Source: Jiella avicenniae (GTDB lineage Bacteria; Pseudomonadota; Alphaproteobacteria; Rhizobiales; Rhizobiaceae). Taken from it: a DNA stretch of 64,000 bases. The stretch spans positions 124,001 to 188,000 of the forward strand of contig NZ_JAJUWU010000009.1 of the NCBI RefSeq assembly GCF_021390325.1. The letters are read 5' to 3'. Shown here piece after piece: positions 28,639 to 33,811 of the stretch (position 1 is the stretch's first letter; every line of letters begins with the position of its first letter). The position numbers and the translations under genes are program-made. The notes beneath the pieces were generated by a model. That model searched no databases. It had not been told where the DNA came from and was given only the letters and a program-made list of their open reading frames with translations.

Positions 28639-31600
28639 ATGCCTGCCAGAGCTCGCTCAACCGCAACGGCCGACGCCGGACGGTTCTCTCCGCCGTTCTC
28701 CGCGCCCTTCGCACTCGACGACCAGGCGGCGGTCTCGGCGCTCCTGAAGGCGTCCGAGCGCTGGTCCCATGACGAGGACAAGGTCGACGAGCGGGCGCGC
28801 GGCCTGATCGTCGGCATCCGCAAGGCGGCCGGGGGCATCGGCGGCGTCGAGGACTTCCTGCGGGAGTTCGGGCTTTCGAGCCGCGAGGGTCTCGCTCTGA
28901 TGATTCTGGCGGAAGCGCTGTTGCGGGTTCCGGATGCGGCCACCCAGGACCGGCTCATCGAGGAGAAGATCGGCGCCGGCGACTGGGCCCATCACGAGGG
29001 CGGCGAAGACCGGCTGATGACGGCCGCCTCGGCCTGGGCGCTCGGCATCTCCGCCCGCATCATCCGCCCCGGCGAGACGCCGCAGGGCGTCATGTCCGGG
29101 CTGGTCAAGCGGATCGGCGGCCCCGCCGTGCGTCAGGCGACGCGTCAGGCGATGCGCTTCCTCGGCCGGCACTTCGTTCTCGGCGAGACCATCGAGGATG
29201 CGCTGGAGCGGGCCCGGGGATTCGAATCCAAAGGCTACCGCCACTCATACGACATGCTGGGCGAGGGCGCCCGGACGATGGAGGACGCCGAGCGCTACTA
29301 CCGCTCCTATGCCAATGCGATCGAGAGGATCGGCCGCAAGGCCGGCAACAAGAAGCTGCCCGACCGGCCGGGGATCTCGGTGAAGCTTTCGGCGCTGCAC
29401 CCGCGCTACCACCCGCTGCACCGCGAGCGCGTCCTCGAGGAACTGTTGCCGAAGGTGATCGCGCTCGCCGAAATGGCCCGCAGCTTCGATCTCAACCTGA
29501 CCATCGACGCCGAGGAAGCCGAGCGGCTGGAACTCTCGCTCGACGTGATCGACGCGCTGGTCGAGCGCTTCGACTTCAAGGGATGGGAAGGCTTCGGCCT
29601 CGCCATCCAGGCCTATCAGAAGCGCGCGCTCGCCGTCATCGAACACGTCGACGACCTCTGCGAGGCCGCGGGCATCCGCATGATGGTGCGCCTCGTCAAG
29701 GGCGCCTATTGGGACACGGAGGTCAAGCACGCGCAGGAGAAGGGGCTCGACGGCTATCCGGTCTACACCCGCAAACCGGCGACCGACCTGTCCTATCTCG
29801 TCTGCTCCAGGGCGCTGCTGGAGCGCCGGGCGCGGATCTATCCGCAATTTGCCACGCACAATGCGCTGACCGTCGCGACCATCCTCGAAATGGCCGGCAG
29901 CGACGCCACCGGCTTCGAGTTCCAGCGTCTTCACGGCATGGGCGAGGCGCTCTACGAGACGCTGCGCCGCTCCGGGCCGAAGCCGGTCGCCTGCCGGATT
30001 TATGCGCCGGTCGGAGGCTACCGCGACCTTCTCGCCTATCTCGTCCGCCGGCTTCTGGAAAACGGCGCCAACTCCTCCTTCGTCGCCATGGTCGGCGACG
30101 AGGACATTCCGGTCGACGATCTTCTGGAACGGCCCCGTTCGATGCTGGAGGGCGGTCCCGCGCGGCACCCGAAGATCGGCCTGCCGAAGGATCTCTTCTC
30201 GCCGCGGCGCAATTCTGCCGGCATCGAGGTGGGCGACCGCCGGGCGCTCGGCAGTCTGATCGCCGAACGACGCCGCACCAGGGTCGAACGGCTGGAGGCA
30301 CGGTGCGAGGCCGCGGCCGCGAAGACGGGCGGCGAGCCGGTCGAGATCGTCTCGCCAGTCGATGGCGGCCTCTTGGGGACGAGCTATCACCTGTCTTCCG
30401 AGGCCGCGACGGCGCTCGTCCGTGAGGCGGCGGCCCACTGCCGGACGGCCGAGGCCGTTCCTGGGCCGAGGCGGGCGGAGATGCTGCGGAAGGCGGCGAG
30501 CCTCATGGAGGAACGCCAGGCCGAACTCCTGGCGATCCTCGCTGCAGAGGGCGGCAAGACTCTCGACGACGGCATCGCCGAGGTGCGCGAGGCGGTCGAC
30601 TTCCTGCGCTTTTACGCCGACGAGGCGATGCGGCTGTTCGGCGCCCCTGTCGAGCTGCCCGGCCCGACCGGCGAGGAGAACCGGCTGACCTATCGCCCGC
30701 GCGGCGTCGCGGTGGCGATCTCGCCCTGGAACTTCCCGCTGGCGATCTTCACCGGCCAGGTCGCGGCGGCGCTTGCCGCCGGCAACGTCGTCATCGCCAA
30801 GCCGGCCGAGCAGACCCCGCTGATCGCGGCCAAGGCCGTCGAGCTTCTCCACCAGGCCGGCTTTGCGAAAGAGCATCTGTATCTCGCCCCCGGCGACGGC
30901 AGGACCGGTGCGGCGCTGACGTCGCACGACCTCACCGCCGTCGTCGCCTTCACCGGCTCGACCGAGACGGCCTTCGCGATCAACCGGGCGCTCGCGTCCC
31001 GCAATGCGCCGATCGCGCCGCTGATCGCCGAGACCGGCGGCATCAACGCGCTGATCGCCGACGCGACCGCACTGCCCGAACAGGTTGCCGACGACGTCGT
31101 CATGTCGGCGTTCCGCTCGGCCGGCCAGCGCTGCTCGGCGCTGAGGCTCCTGTTCCTGCAGGAGGACGTCGCCGACAAGATCCTCGACATGATCGCCGGC
31201 GCGGCGAAGGAGCTGACCGTCGGCGACCCGCGCGAGCTTTCGACCGACATCGGCCCGGTGATCGACGGCGAGCAGCTCGCCATGCTGCGCGACCACGTTT
31301 CCCGCATGGAGCGCGAGCAGAAGCTGCGCTATCGCGGCGAGGTGCCCGCCGACCTCGCGGCCAAGGGGCACTATTTCGCCCCTCACATCGTCGAGATCGA
31401 TCGGCCCGAGGCGCTCGACCGCGAGATCTTCGGCCCCGTCCTCCACGTGGTTCGCTGGAAGGCCAGGGACTTCGACAAGATCCTCGATGCGATCGAGGCG
31501 ACGGGATATGGGCTGACGCTCGGCGTGCACAGCCGGATCAACGAAACGGCCCACAAGGTCATTGCACGCCTGTCAGTCGGTAACGTCTATGTGAATCGAA

Positions 31601-31773
31601 ACATCATCGGTGCGATCGTCGGATCTCAACCCTTTGGTGGATCAGGGCTTTCCGGAACGGGGCCGAAGGCGGGCGGTCCGAATTACCTTGTCCGCTTCGC
31701 CCGCGAACAGGTCATTTCGGTCAATACTGCCGCCGCTGGAGGTAACGCCAGCCTGATTGCGATGGAATCGTAG
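28639..31773 (+). CDS. putA: Bifunctional proline dehydrogenase / glutamate-semialdehyde dehydrogenase
   Basis: This 1044-aa enzyme oxidises proline to glutamate. Residues about 60-510 form the FAD-dependent proline dehydrogenase barrel (SVKLSALHPRYHPLHRERV, MVRLVKGAYWDTEVKHAQ, YAPVGGYRDLLAYLVRRLLENG). From about 560 follows the P5C dehydrogenase domain, with base E798 (AETGGINAL) and nucleophile C832 (SAGQRCSALR). There is no N-terminal ribbon-helix-helix DNA-binding domain and no long C-terminal extension, so it is the short PutA type and not a self-repressor. GGAGA precedes the ATG. The start is at 28639; the stop is followed by a candidate small RNA. Confidence 0.96.
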   Translation: MPARARSTATADAGRFSPPFSAPFALDDQAAVSALLKASERWSHDEDKVDERARGLIVGIRKAAGGIGGVEDFLREFGLSSREGLALMILAEALLRVPDAATQDRLIEEKIGAGDWAHHEGGEDRLMTAASAWALGISARIIRPGETPQGVMSGLVKRIGGPAVRQATRQAMRFLGRHFVLGETIEDALERARGFESKGYRHSYDMLGEGARTMEDAERYYRSYANAIERIGRKAGNKKLPDRPGISVKLSALHPRYHPLHRERVLEELLPKVIALAEMARSFDLNLTIDAEEAERLELSLDVIDALVERFDFKGWEGFGLAIQAYQKRALAVIEHVDDLCEAAGIRMMVRLVKGAYWDTEVKHAQEKGLDGYPVYTRKPATDLSYLVCSRALLERRARIYPQFATHNALTVATILEMAGSDATGFEFQRLHGMGEALYETLRRSGPKPVACRIYAPVGGYRDLLAYLVRRLLENGANSSFVAMVGDEDIPVDDLLERPRSMLEGGPARHPKIGLPKDLFSPRRNSAGIEVGDRRALGSLIAERRRTRVERLEARCEAAAAKTGGEPVEIVSPVDGGLLGTSYHLSSEAATALVREAAAHCRTAEAVPGPRRAEMLRKAASLMEERQAELLAILAAEGGKTLDDGIAEVREAVDFLRFYADEAMRLFGAPVELPGPTGEENRLTYRPRGVAVAISPWNFPLAIFTGQVAAALAAGNVVIAKPAEQTPLIAAKAVELLHQAGFAKEHLYLAPGDGRTGAALTSHDLTAVVAFTGSTETAFAINRALASRNAPIAPLIAETGGINALIADATALPEQVADDVVMSAFRSAGQRCSALRLLFLQEDVADKILDMIAGAAKELTVGDPRELSTDIGPVIDGEQLAMLRDHVSRMEREQKLRYRGEVPADLAAKGHYFAPHIVEIDRPEALDREIFGPVLHVVRWKARDFDKILDAIEATGYGLTLGVHSRINETAHKVIARLSVGNVYVNRNIIGAIVGSQPFGGSGLSGTGPKAGGPNYLVRFAREQVISVNTAAAGGNASLIAMES

Positions 31774-31839
31774 CAACCCCGCCACAGCAGAGCCGTGAAA
31801 CCTGTGCTAGGTTGACTGCGTTAGGGCAATGCGTGAGCA

Positions 31840-31986
31840 GCGGCCGCCCCATTCCTCCCATTGGGCACGGCCGCACATGCCCGAGTAGCAGACGGCCGCA
31901 TCGGTGTTGTCTCCCAGCGCCGCGGCCGGGATTTCGAGTAGAAGACGAGCCCGGTGGTCTCCTCCCACACCGGGCTCGTCTTTTTT
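31840..31986 (+). ncRNA. Candidate small RNA with three anti-Shine-Dalgarno loops (cuckoo/alpha-r14-like)
   Basis: Three consecutive GC-rich hairpins occupy this gap between putA and fhs. Hairpin 1 (31840-31874) has stem GCGGCCG/CGGCCGC plus CCCA/TGGG and loop TTCCTCCCAT. Hairpin 2 (31893-31928) has stem CGGCCGC/GCGGCCG plus GGTGTTG/CAGCGCC and loop TCTCC. Hairpin 3 (31942-31982) has a 15-bp stem, loop GTCTCCTCCCA and a T6 tail, and is a strong terminator. Loops carrying CUCC/CCUCCC would pair with ribosome binding sites. This is the hallmark of the alphaproteobacterial cuckoo or alpha-r14 (NfeR1-type) RNAs. The start is approximate and no convincing promoter was found. Family membership is inference from structure. 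Confidence 0.55.
31942..31986 (+). terminator. Strong intrinsic terminator
   Basis: AAGACGAGCCCGGTG (31942-31956) pairs perfectly with CACCGGGCTCGTCTT (31968-31982) across an 11-nt loop, followed by a run of six T (31981-31986). It would end the candidate small RNA and any putA read-through. It isolates fhs, whose promoter must lie in 31987-32131. Confidence 0.9.
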
Positions 31987-32131
31987 CGGCTCCTCGCCAA
32001 AGCCAGCCCTCGCCTCCCGCGATCTTCCGGCGCTTGCCGACGCTCCGGGTTTTCCGCCACGGCAGGCTGTGGCAATGGGCATCCACCTTGCGTATGCTGT
32101 CGCCAAAACGATCGAGCAGAGGGAGAAAGCC

Positions 32132-33811
32132 TTGAGCGACTACAATTCCGACATCGCCCTTGCGCGCGCCGCGAAGAAGAAGCCGATCAAGGAAATTGCC
32201 GGGCGCCTCGGCATGTCGGAAGAGGACATCGTTCCCTACGGCCACGACAAGGCGAAGATCGCCGCACCCTTCCTGAAATCGCTGGAGGGCCGTCCCGACG
32301 GCAAGCTGATCCTCGTCACCGCCGTCAACCCGACGCCGGCCGGCGAGGGCAAGACGACGACCACCGTCGGCCTCGGCGACGGGCTGAACCGCATCGGCAA
32401 GAATGCGCTGATCTGCATCCGCGAGGCCTCGCTCGGCCCCTGCTTCGGCGTCAAGGGCGGGGCGGCGGGCGGCGGTTATGCCCAGGTCGTGCCGATGGAG
32501 GAGATGAACCTCCACTTCACCGGCGACTTCCACGCGATCACCACGGCGCACAACCTGCTCTCGGCGATGATCGACAACCACATCTACTGGGGCAACGAGC
32601 TGCAGATCGATTCCCGCCGCGTCACCTGGCGGCGGGTGCTCGACATGAACGACCGGGCGCTGCGCCAGATCACCACCTCGCTCGGCGGCGTCGCCAACGG
32701 CTTTCCGCGGGAGACCGGTTTCGACATCACCGTCGCCTCCGAGGTGATGGCGATCCTCTGCCTTTCGGAGGACCTCGAGGACCTGGAACGCCGCCTCGGC
32801 GACATCATCGTCGCCTACCGCCGCGACAAGACGGCGATCACCGCCCGTGACCTCAAGGCCGACGGCGCGATGGCCGTTCTATTGAAGGACGCGATCCAGC
32901 CGAACCTCGTCCAGACGCTGGAGAACAATCCGGCCTTCGTCCATGGCGGCCCCTTCGCCAACATCGCCCATGGCTGCAATTCCGTCGTCGCCACCAAGGC
33001 GGCGCTGAAGCTGGCCGACTACGTCGTCACCGAGGCCGGCTTCGGCGCCGATCTCGGGGCCGAAAAGTTCTTCGACATCAAATGCCGCAAGGCCGGCCTC
33101 AAGCCCGCGGCGGCCGTCGTCGTGGCGACGGTCAGGGCGATGAAGATGAATGGCGGCGTCGCCAAGGCCGATCTCGGGGCGGAGAACGTCGAGGCGGTGA
33201 AGGCCGGTTGCGCCAATCTCGGCCGCCATGTCGAGAACGTCAAAGGCTTCGGAGTCCCCGTCGTCGTCGCGGTCAACCATTTCTCCGCCGATACCGAGGC
33301 GGAGATCCAGGCGGTGAAGGACTATGTCGCGACCCTCGGCACCGAGGCGATCGTCTGCCGCCACTGGGCGGAAGGCTCGGCCGGGATCACCGGGCTCGCC
33401 GAAAAGGTCGCGGAGCTCGCCGATGGCGGCACTGCCGACTTCCAGCCGATCTATCCCGACGAGATGGGCCTGTTCGAAAAGATCGAGACCGTCGTCAAGA
33501 AGATCTACCGCGGCTCGGAGGTGACGGCCGACCAATCCGTCCTCGACCAGCTCTCCGCCTGGGAGGAGGCCGGCTACGGCAATCTGCCGGTCTGCATGGC
33601 GAAGACCCAATATTCCTTCTCCACCGATCCGACGAAGCGCGGCGCGCCGACGGATTTTTCCGTCCATGTGCGCGAAGTGCGGCTGTCGGCCGGCGCCGGT
33701 TTCGTCGTCGCCATTTGCGGGCAGATCATGACCATGCCGGGACTGCCCTCGCAGCCGGCGGCCGAATCGATCTATCTGAACGACAACGGCGAGATCGAAG
33801 GCCTGTTCTGA
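32132..33811 (+). CDS. fhs: Formate-tetrahydrofolate ligase
   Basis: This 559-aa enzyme makes 10-formyltetrahydrofolate from formate, THF and ATP. The nucleotide loop [19 protein letters not shown], the [23 protein letters not shown] stretch and the C-terminal [12 protein letters not shown] are canonical. I start it at the TTG at 32132 (then [18 protein letters not shown]), since GGGAGAAA lies 4 nt upstream and the length then equals that of rhizobial homologues. An in-frame ATG at 32074 would add a non-conserved leader. The ABC ATPase starts 16 bp after the stop, so the two are probably co-transcribed. Confidence 0.95.

Follow-up and report, generated by a model that had tools for sequence, protein, structure and literature searches.

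A probable stand-alone anti-Shine–Dalgarno small RNA behind putA in Jiella and related genera

Introduction

The closest described systems are alphaproteobacterial small RNAs (sRNAs) that carry anti-Shine–Dalgarno (aSD) motifs in hairpin loops. The alpha-r14 RNAs (ar14, Rfam family RF02344), which include NfeR1 of Sinorhizobium meliloti, consist of three hairpins with very different stems, each exposing an identical unpaired CCUCCUCCC (PMC10746234, PMC7143759). The aSD motifs of NfeR1 are reported to silence mRNAs that mostly encode transport proteins (PMC7143759). The RNAs RFMSmelA075 and RFMSmelA099 are described as having three and four such hairpins, respectively, and aSD-loop RNAs as present several times per genome and subject to intragenomic transfer (PMC3927594). 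CIN1 is the name given to tandem ar14 copies located beside a DUF1127 gene (PMC10253847). A literature search found no publication on the RNA described below or on Jiella small RNAs.

Results

Locus and predicted structure

The window, that is, the whole stretch of 64,000 nt that was analysed (G000:C48:124001-188000), belongs to the genome of Jiella avicenniae (G000). Between putA and fhs, the start of which was chosen from the conservation of the N-terminus, lie three hairpins with C/U-rich aSD loops (Table 1). An earlier note, made from the letters of this DNA, had proposed the three hairpins and had read the last of them, with its T6 run, as a terminator; both proposals hold. An outer helix enclosing hairpin 1 is also part of the RNA, so the start moves about 20 nt upstream of position 31840, where the note had placed it. 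Hairpin 3 was not flagged by a generic terminator scan; the scan permits loops of 3–8 nt, and the loop of hairpin 3 has 11 nt. Coding ORFs over the putA–fhs gap (e.g. 31812-32135 on the + strand) were rejected, since the stems are compensated and the alignment gaps are not multiples of three.

Table 1. Coordinates of the proposed sRNA, its structural elements and its neighbours in the window.
Feature	Position	Strand	Basis or annotation
putA (bifunctional proline dehydrogenase/aldehyde dehydrogenase; upstream neighbour)	28639..31773	+	Pfam Pro_dh-DNA_bdg, Pro_dh, Aldedh
Conserved block directly 3′ of the putA stop; probable promoter/control region	31771..31819	+	alignment
Proposed sRNA transcript, about 165 nt	31820..31987	+	outer helix, from which the 5′ end is deduced; T run, where the RNA ends
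Outer helix, 31824-31828 with 31878-31882, around hairpin 1	31824..31882	+	covariation
Hairpin 1, loop with UUCCUCCCA (DNA TTCCTCCCA) at 31852-31860	31840..31874	+	fold and alignment
Hairpin 2, loop UCUCC(C) (DNA TCTCC) at 31910-31914	31893..31928	+	fold and alignment
Hairpin 3, intrinsic terminator, loop GUCUCCUCCCA (DNA GTCTCCTCCCA) at 31957-31967, T6 at 31981-31986	31941..31983	+	fold and alignment
fhs (formate–tetrahydrofolate ligase; downstream neighbour)	32132..33811	+	Pfam FTHFS, 893.5 bits

Stability and covariation

The minimum free energy of 31834–31988 is −82.1 kcal/mol, compared with −57.2 ± 4.1 kcal/mol for 200 dinucleotide shuffles (z −6.1), none of which is as low. Three CTCC-loop hairpins with at least 4 bp, lying within 130 nt, occur at one place in the window when both strands are scanned, and this place is the sRNA locus; shuffling yields the same pattern in 6 of 60 strands. 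When each hairpin is required to have at least 5 bp, no such triple is left in the whole window, the sRNA locus included. By itself, the aSD loop pattern is only moderately unlikely, and it is stem strength and conservation that exclude chance.

A DNA search gave a match at the sRNA locus in eight of nine other Jiella genomes, immediately downstream of putA or of what remains of it. The tenth genome, G002, was found by a covariance model, R1, built from nine Jiella sequences that do not include it; here the RNA (51.7 bits) also lies between putA and fhs. The sRNA thus stands behind putA or its remnant in all ten Jiella genomes searched, and the R1 search finds one copy of the lineage per genome. 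In the ten-sequence alignment (A2), the nine letters of loop 1, UUCCUCCCA, are identical in nine loci and replaced by GUCUCCCAG in G002; the CUCC of loop 2 is present in nine loci and absent in G007, and the CCUCCC of loop 3 is present in all ten.

The ten-sequence alignment was evaluated over 41 pairs, a set that leaves out the outer stem of hairpin 2 because its columns fail to align. Overall, 87.3% of cells are paired; with slid partners the figure is 38–52%, a comparison in which the structure is favoured because it was taken partly from the window's own fold. Two-sided compensatory changes occur in 15 of the 41 pairs and in 30 cells (9.2 and 12.9 on average in 500 shuffles, none of which is as high), and the covariation score is 0.290 versus 0.202, these shuffles ignoring the relatedness of the sequences. 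Further pair types occur in ordinary number (79 of 500 shuffles), and one drawn pair (columns 40–49) is formed in just one of the ten sequences. The nine-sequence RNAalifold consensus has two-sided changes in 10 of 34 pairs.

Two-sided changes affect five of the seven pair columns of the outer helix (80% of cells paired), the letters of which read GGGCA/UGCCC in the window, GUCAGG/CCUGAC in G003 and G008, and AGAGC/GCUCU in G007. They affect 2 of 12 pairs in hairpin 1 (80.7% of cells paired), five of the six inner pairs in hairpin 2 (76.7%) and 3 of 16 pairs in hairpin 3 (98.8%). Across relatives, the loops are retained and the stems rewritten with compensation, the opposite of the pattern that the earlier note had regarded as evidence against its proposal.

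Distribution beyond Jiella

At E ≤ 0.01, R1 matches were found in 85 of 199 sampled family genomes; many of these matches, about 115–125 nt long, are probably ordinary ar14 RNAs. Eight R1 loci were opened in detail; in those of G002, G049, G136 and G050, putA immediately precedes the match. A search with the PutA C-terminus matched 366 of 394 family genomes, and the 3′ flanks of the best 70 were read. At least two CCTCC-loop hairpins follow putA in 18 of the 30 best loci (500 nt read) and in none of the next 40 (450 nt read), where G347 has two overlapping CCTCC hits at a single place. The 18 positives comprise seven Jiella genomes and 11 genomes from seven further genera (g23, g27, g41, g42, g52, g128 and g142); the 12 negatives among the best 30 belong to g128 (four), g37 (one), g14 (three) and g103 (four). 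Together with G001, G006 and G009, the 18 constitute the set of 21 RNA-bearing loci used below, among which G031 (g23) is the least convincing.

The loops are kept on differing stems in several genera; the stems of hairpin 2, for example, are replaced among loci (GGCAT/ATGCC, GACATT/GATGTC, GGCGTT/AACGCC, CCGGTG/CACCGG). Exact CCTCCTCCC is present in 2 of the 21 loci (G345 and G221), CTCCTCCC in 15 and TCCTCCC in all 21, counts that are partly circular because the loci were picked by their CCTCC hairpins. Hairpin 3 is without an aSD loop at eight loci (G035, G345, G049, G247, G414, G150, G221 and G060), where hairpins 1 and 2 retain theirs. This arrangement, a terminator hairpin without and hairpins 1 and 2 with an aSD loop, as at L183, L187 and L192 (g41 and g142), indicates that the number of modules changes within one locus.

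Upstream block and 5′ end

The block after the putA stop contains ACAG at 31784–31787 and TGTGCTA at 31803–31809, with an extended −10-like TGCTAGGTT. The ACAG element is present in 15 of the 21 RNA-bearing loci, compared with 0 of 52 putA loci without the RNA, and TGyGCTA in 10 of 21, again compared with 0 of 52. Six RNA-bearing loci, all outside Jiella, have neither. As judged from its sequence, the block (31771–31819) is probably the promoter or control region of the sRNA. A consensus scan of 31600–32200 finds no sigma-70 consensus promoter, and the LTTR box of NfeR1, TGCA-N6-GCAT, is absent from 31771–31823 with up to one mismatch allowed. Since the outer helix covaries, the transcript is expected to start upstream of 31824, near 31820.

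Promoters of the EcfG general-stress type have the consensus GAAAC-N17-CGTT, and 31797–31822 could be such a promoter. This is not the leading view. Transcription from it would start near 31830 and lose the 5′ arm of the outer helix, so the start near 31820 argues against it; moreover, the GGAAC/GAAAC element, tempting inside Jiella, fails to hold in other genera.

Relation to known RNA families

None of the Rfam families scores at or above its gathering threshold in the window. The 14 listed matches to 31500–32200 (E up to 10) include ar14, which ranks first of the bacterial sRNA families for the window RNA and matches it over the full model with 27.2 bits, the gathering cut-off being 58.8. 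It is also the only Rfam family that recurs across the 17 other homologue loci tested, 13 of which have an ar14 match of 27.4–40.0 bits, all below the cut-off (L012 40.0, L154 38.6, L011 33.9, L013 32.7, L151 32.3, L183 32.2, L014 32.1, L016 31.8, L128 31.1, L010 30.3, L015 28.8, L182 28.7 and L192 27.4); no ar14 match was obtained at L017, L149, L189 and L199. Ten of the 13 matches fit 86–98 nt, corresponding to hairpins 2 and 3 only, and those at L151, L183 and L016 cover 128–163 nt.

Several other matches were set aside. The top match in the window by both bits and E-value is mir-185 (37.1 bits, cut-off 60), a microRNA model, taken to resemble a strong hairpin by chance; CrfA, ar7, Scr3202 and the other sub-threshold window matches are microRNA models or have lower scores and are likewise attributed to chance, as are anti-hemB at L189 and Thr_leader at L017. 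The CcsR1 model (RF02791) gives 19.3 bits in the window, below its cut-off of 65.3, and the 14 matches listed for 31500–32200 (E up to 10) do not include the AbcR1/2 (alpha-r15) family.

The earlier note had proposed a member or a relative of the alpha-r14/cuckoo RNAs. Relatedness stands, given the full-model match of an aSD-loop sRNA and its recurrence at 13 of 17 loci; strict membership does not, as the copies tested reach at most 40.0 of the 58.8 bits and the window has no perfect CCUCCUCCC loop, only loop 3 matching eight of the nine letters of the motif. The RNA is considered a sibling rather than a member of ar14 because no copy tested reaches the cut-off and few loops hold the full CCUCCUCCC.

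The same genome contains four tandem ar14 copies at L001:1501-2009 (G000:C6:109857-110365, − strand) with 74.3, 66.5, 51.8 and 51.8 bits, two of them above the cut-off. A 47-aa DUF1127 gene is located beside them (L001:2026-2166, − strand; Pfam 55.2 bits), making this a CIN1/cuckoo cluster. A possible stand-alone aSD RNA is found at L006:1501-1610 (G000:C16:15440-15549, − strand; ar14 24.5 bits), where two stretches complementary to GGGAGGA (CCTCC) accompany a terminator-like hairpin.

Predicted targets

The complement of loop 3 placed ahead of a start codon, GGGAGGAGA-N1-9-ATG, occurs at 24 sites in the same genome. Once a duplicate (L271) is removed from 21, the ORFs of 100 aa or longer behind these sites number 20. 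Eight encode solute-transport components (three DctP, two NMT1_3, one Peripla_BP_6, one ABC ATPase and one ABC permease) and three match no Pfam family. With two control SD words, 18 sites and 12 ORFs of at least 100 aa were obtained; an ABC substrate-binding protein and an AcrB-type efflux pump are among the products of these ORFs. The transporter excess is not significant (8 of 20 versus 1 of 12, or 2 of 12 counting the pump; one-sided Fisher p 0.06 and 0.16), and the predicted transporter targets would equally suit the genome's own ar14 copies. Transporter mRNAs are weakly predicted to be among the main targets.

Pairing of the loops with the putA start region is close to the background mean; with the fhs start region it is 1.1–1.5 SD better than the mean but misses the best 5% for every loop. 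Both genes were rejected as special targets, since neither beats the best 5% of the background.

Dependence on the neighbouring genes and alternative explanations

In G006 and G001, putA persists only as a C-terminal remnant, of which 80 and about 147 of 1044 residues, respectively, are found, in pieces; the frames of G001 are to be read with care because its assembly is 84% complete. Despite this, the DNA corresponding to 31815–31990 is 92% (G006) and 87% (G001) identical, and the sRNA thus stands beside a putA remnant at 2 of the 21 loci; the two losses may be one event. At these loci (L245 and L246), the remnant adjoins the conserved sRNA and fhs. The fhs gene is present in the fetched flank of 17 of the 21 RNA loci and not in that of G004, G345, G060 and G136 (flank of up to 1.5 kb); six putA loci without the RNA (G290, G022, G355, G258, G111 and G392) have fhs alongside. 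Since the RNA persists with a putA remnant or without adjacent fhs, it looks like a gene in its own right. Among 80 fetched fhs loci, four outside Jiella (L095, L099, L107 and L111) are preceded within 6 kb by a PutA match, which at L095 is right next to fhs; the proximity of the two genes is, accordingly, either older than the RNA or recurrent.

These observations bear on how the RNA is made. It is possible, though unlikely, that it is a 3′-UTR-derived sRNA, cut by RNase E from putA read-through, with a level that follows putA as that of CcsR1–4 follows ccaF1. The first aSD loop does lie 76–90 nt past the putA stop at 20 of the 21 loci (142 nt in G031), and 3′-UTR processing of the CcsR RNAs is documented (PMC8625941, PMC10253847); however, the RNA and its upstream block are kept (92% and 87%) beside the remnants in G006 and G001, possibly after one loss, and 15 of the 21 loci have a specific block between the putA stop and the RNA. 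The view that the structure is merely a terminator of putA transcription, with incidental aSD loops, is very improbable: it would explain an intrinsic terminator behind putA in the form of hairpin 3, but the two upstream hairpins and the loops are also conserved, with compensated stems, the hairpins are absent from 52 other putA loci examined, and the RNA outlasts putA where only a remnant is left.

A role of the RNA in cis, as leader or attenuator of fhs, or as a device that ties putA to fhs, is scarcely credible. The terminator ends 145 nt upstream of fhs, the RNA occurs at four loci without fhs in the flank of up to 1.5 kb, and the six putA loci named above have fhs and no such RNA, although fhs does follow at 17 of 21 loci; the pairing of the fhs start, better than the background mean by 1.1–1.5 SD, is still outside the best 5% of random stretches. 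Given the fhs flank counts and the fhs pairing, together with the two loci at putA remnants and the background-level pairing of putA, the suggestion in the earlier note that the placement could link proline or one-carbon metabolism to translation through the neighbouring genes is not borne out; the RNA may share control by nitrogen or proline signals with putA. Very little weight can be given to a recent hop of a divergent ar14 copy out of the genome's own cluster. Four tandem copies of 51.8–74.3 bits at C6:109857-110365 could have supplied it, and intragenomic transfer of such multi-copy RNAs is described (PMC3927594), but the position of the RNA is shared by several genera and is therefore old, and R1 gives G002 51.7 bits and the ar14 cluster only 36.7 (the nine training sequences score 124–162 by construction).

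Discussion

With structure, conservation, covariation, synteny and persistence beside putA remnants all observed, the locus is best read as a gene for a stand-alone trans-acting aSD sRNA of about 165 nt that blocks SD sequences and that descends vertically, in a fixed place behind putA, as a sibling of the alpha-r14/cuckoo RNAs; we hold this to be highly likely. We infer that the RNA is transcribed, has its own promoter and blocks SD sequences. Transcription would probably start from a promoter within the block that follows the putA stop and would end at the RNA's own terminator. Its loops (UUCCUCCC, UCUCCC and UCUCCUCCC) are predicted to pair with purine-rich SD sequences of several mRNAs, an expectation based on the analogy with NfeR1; an SD paired in this way would be hidden from the 30S subunit and translation lowered, as reported for NfeR1/alpha-r14. 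The RNA would have been inherited vertically in this place in Jiella and several related genera. Whether it also represents a separate, undescribed family, anchored to putA by descent, equipped with its own control element and outer helix, outliving putA and tuning uptake alongside ar14, seems to us evenly balanced.

A single aSD RNA at a fixed place across genera makes its ancestry, control region and target set traceable gene by gene. None of the copies tested attains the Rfam cut-off, so real relatives escape the family thresholds. The two species with a putA remnant constitute a natural test of the RNA's dependence on its host gene.

Comparison with known systems

As with alpha-r14 (RF02344; NfeR1 of S. 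meliloti), the RNA has three hairpins with hypervariable stems and an aSD motif unpaired in the loops, in the window and in most relatives, loop 2 of G007 being without the motif; as with NfeR1, the complementary sites of the window RNA include transport genes. It differs from alpha-r14 in its length (about 165 nt versus 123), in the extra outer helix at hairpin 1 and the longer middle hairpin, and in loops that are mostly UUCCUCCC or UCUCCUCCC instead of the identical CCUCCUCCC; the lineage is also single-copy, with a fixed place behind putA. The RpoD promoter signature and the LTTR box TGCA-N6-GCAT of NfeR1 are not seen, and a different conserved block lies upstream. AbcR1/2 (alpha-r15) are reported likewise to carry aSD motifs and to act on transporter mRNAs (PMC7143759). 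Modular aSD hairpins in variable number are shared with what is described for cuckoo/CIN1 (RFMSmelA075 and RFMSmelA099), the present RNA having three or two aSD loops; in contrast to CIN1, it is not in tandem and not beside a DUF1127 gene, its neighbours being putA and fhs. Like CcsR1–4 of Rhodobacter sphaeroides, it is an RNA with a CCUCCUCCC-type motif located behind a protein gene, whereas the CcsR RNAs are described as four in one transcript with ccaF1, from which they are processed (PMC10253847).
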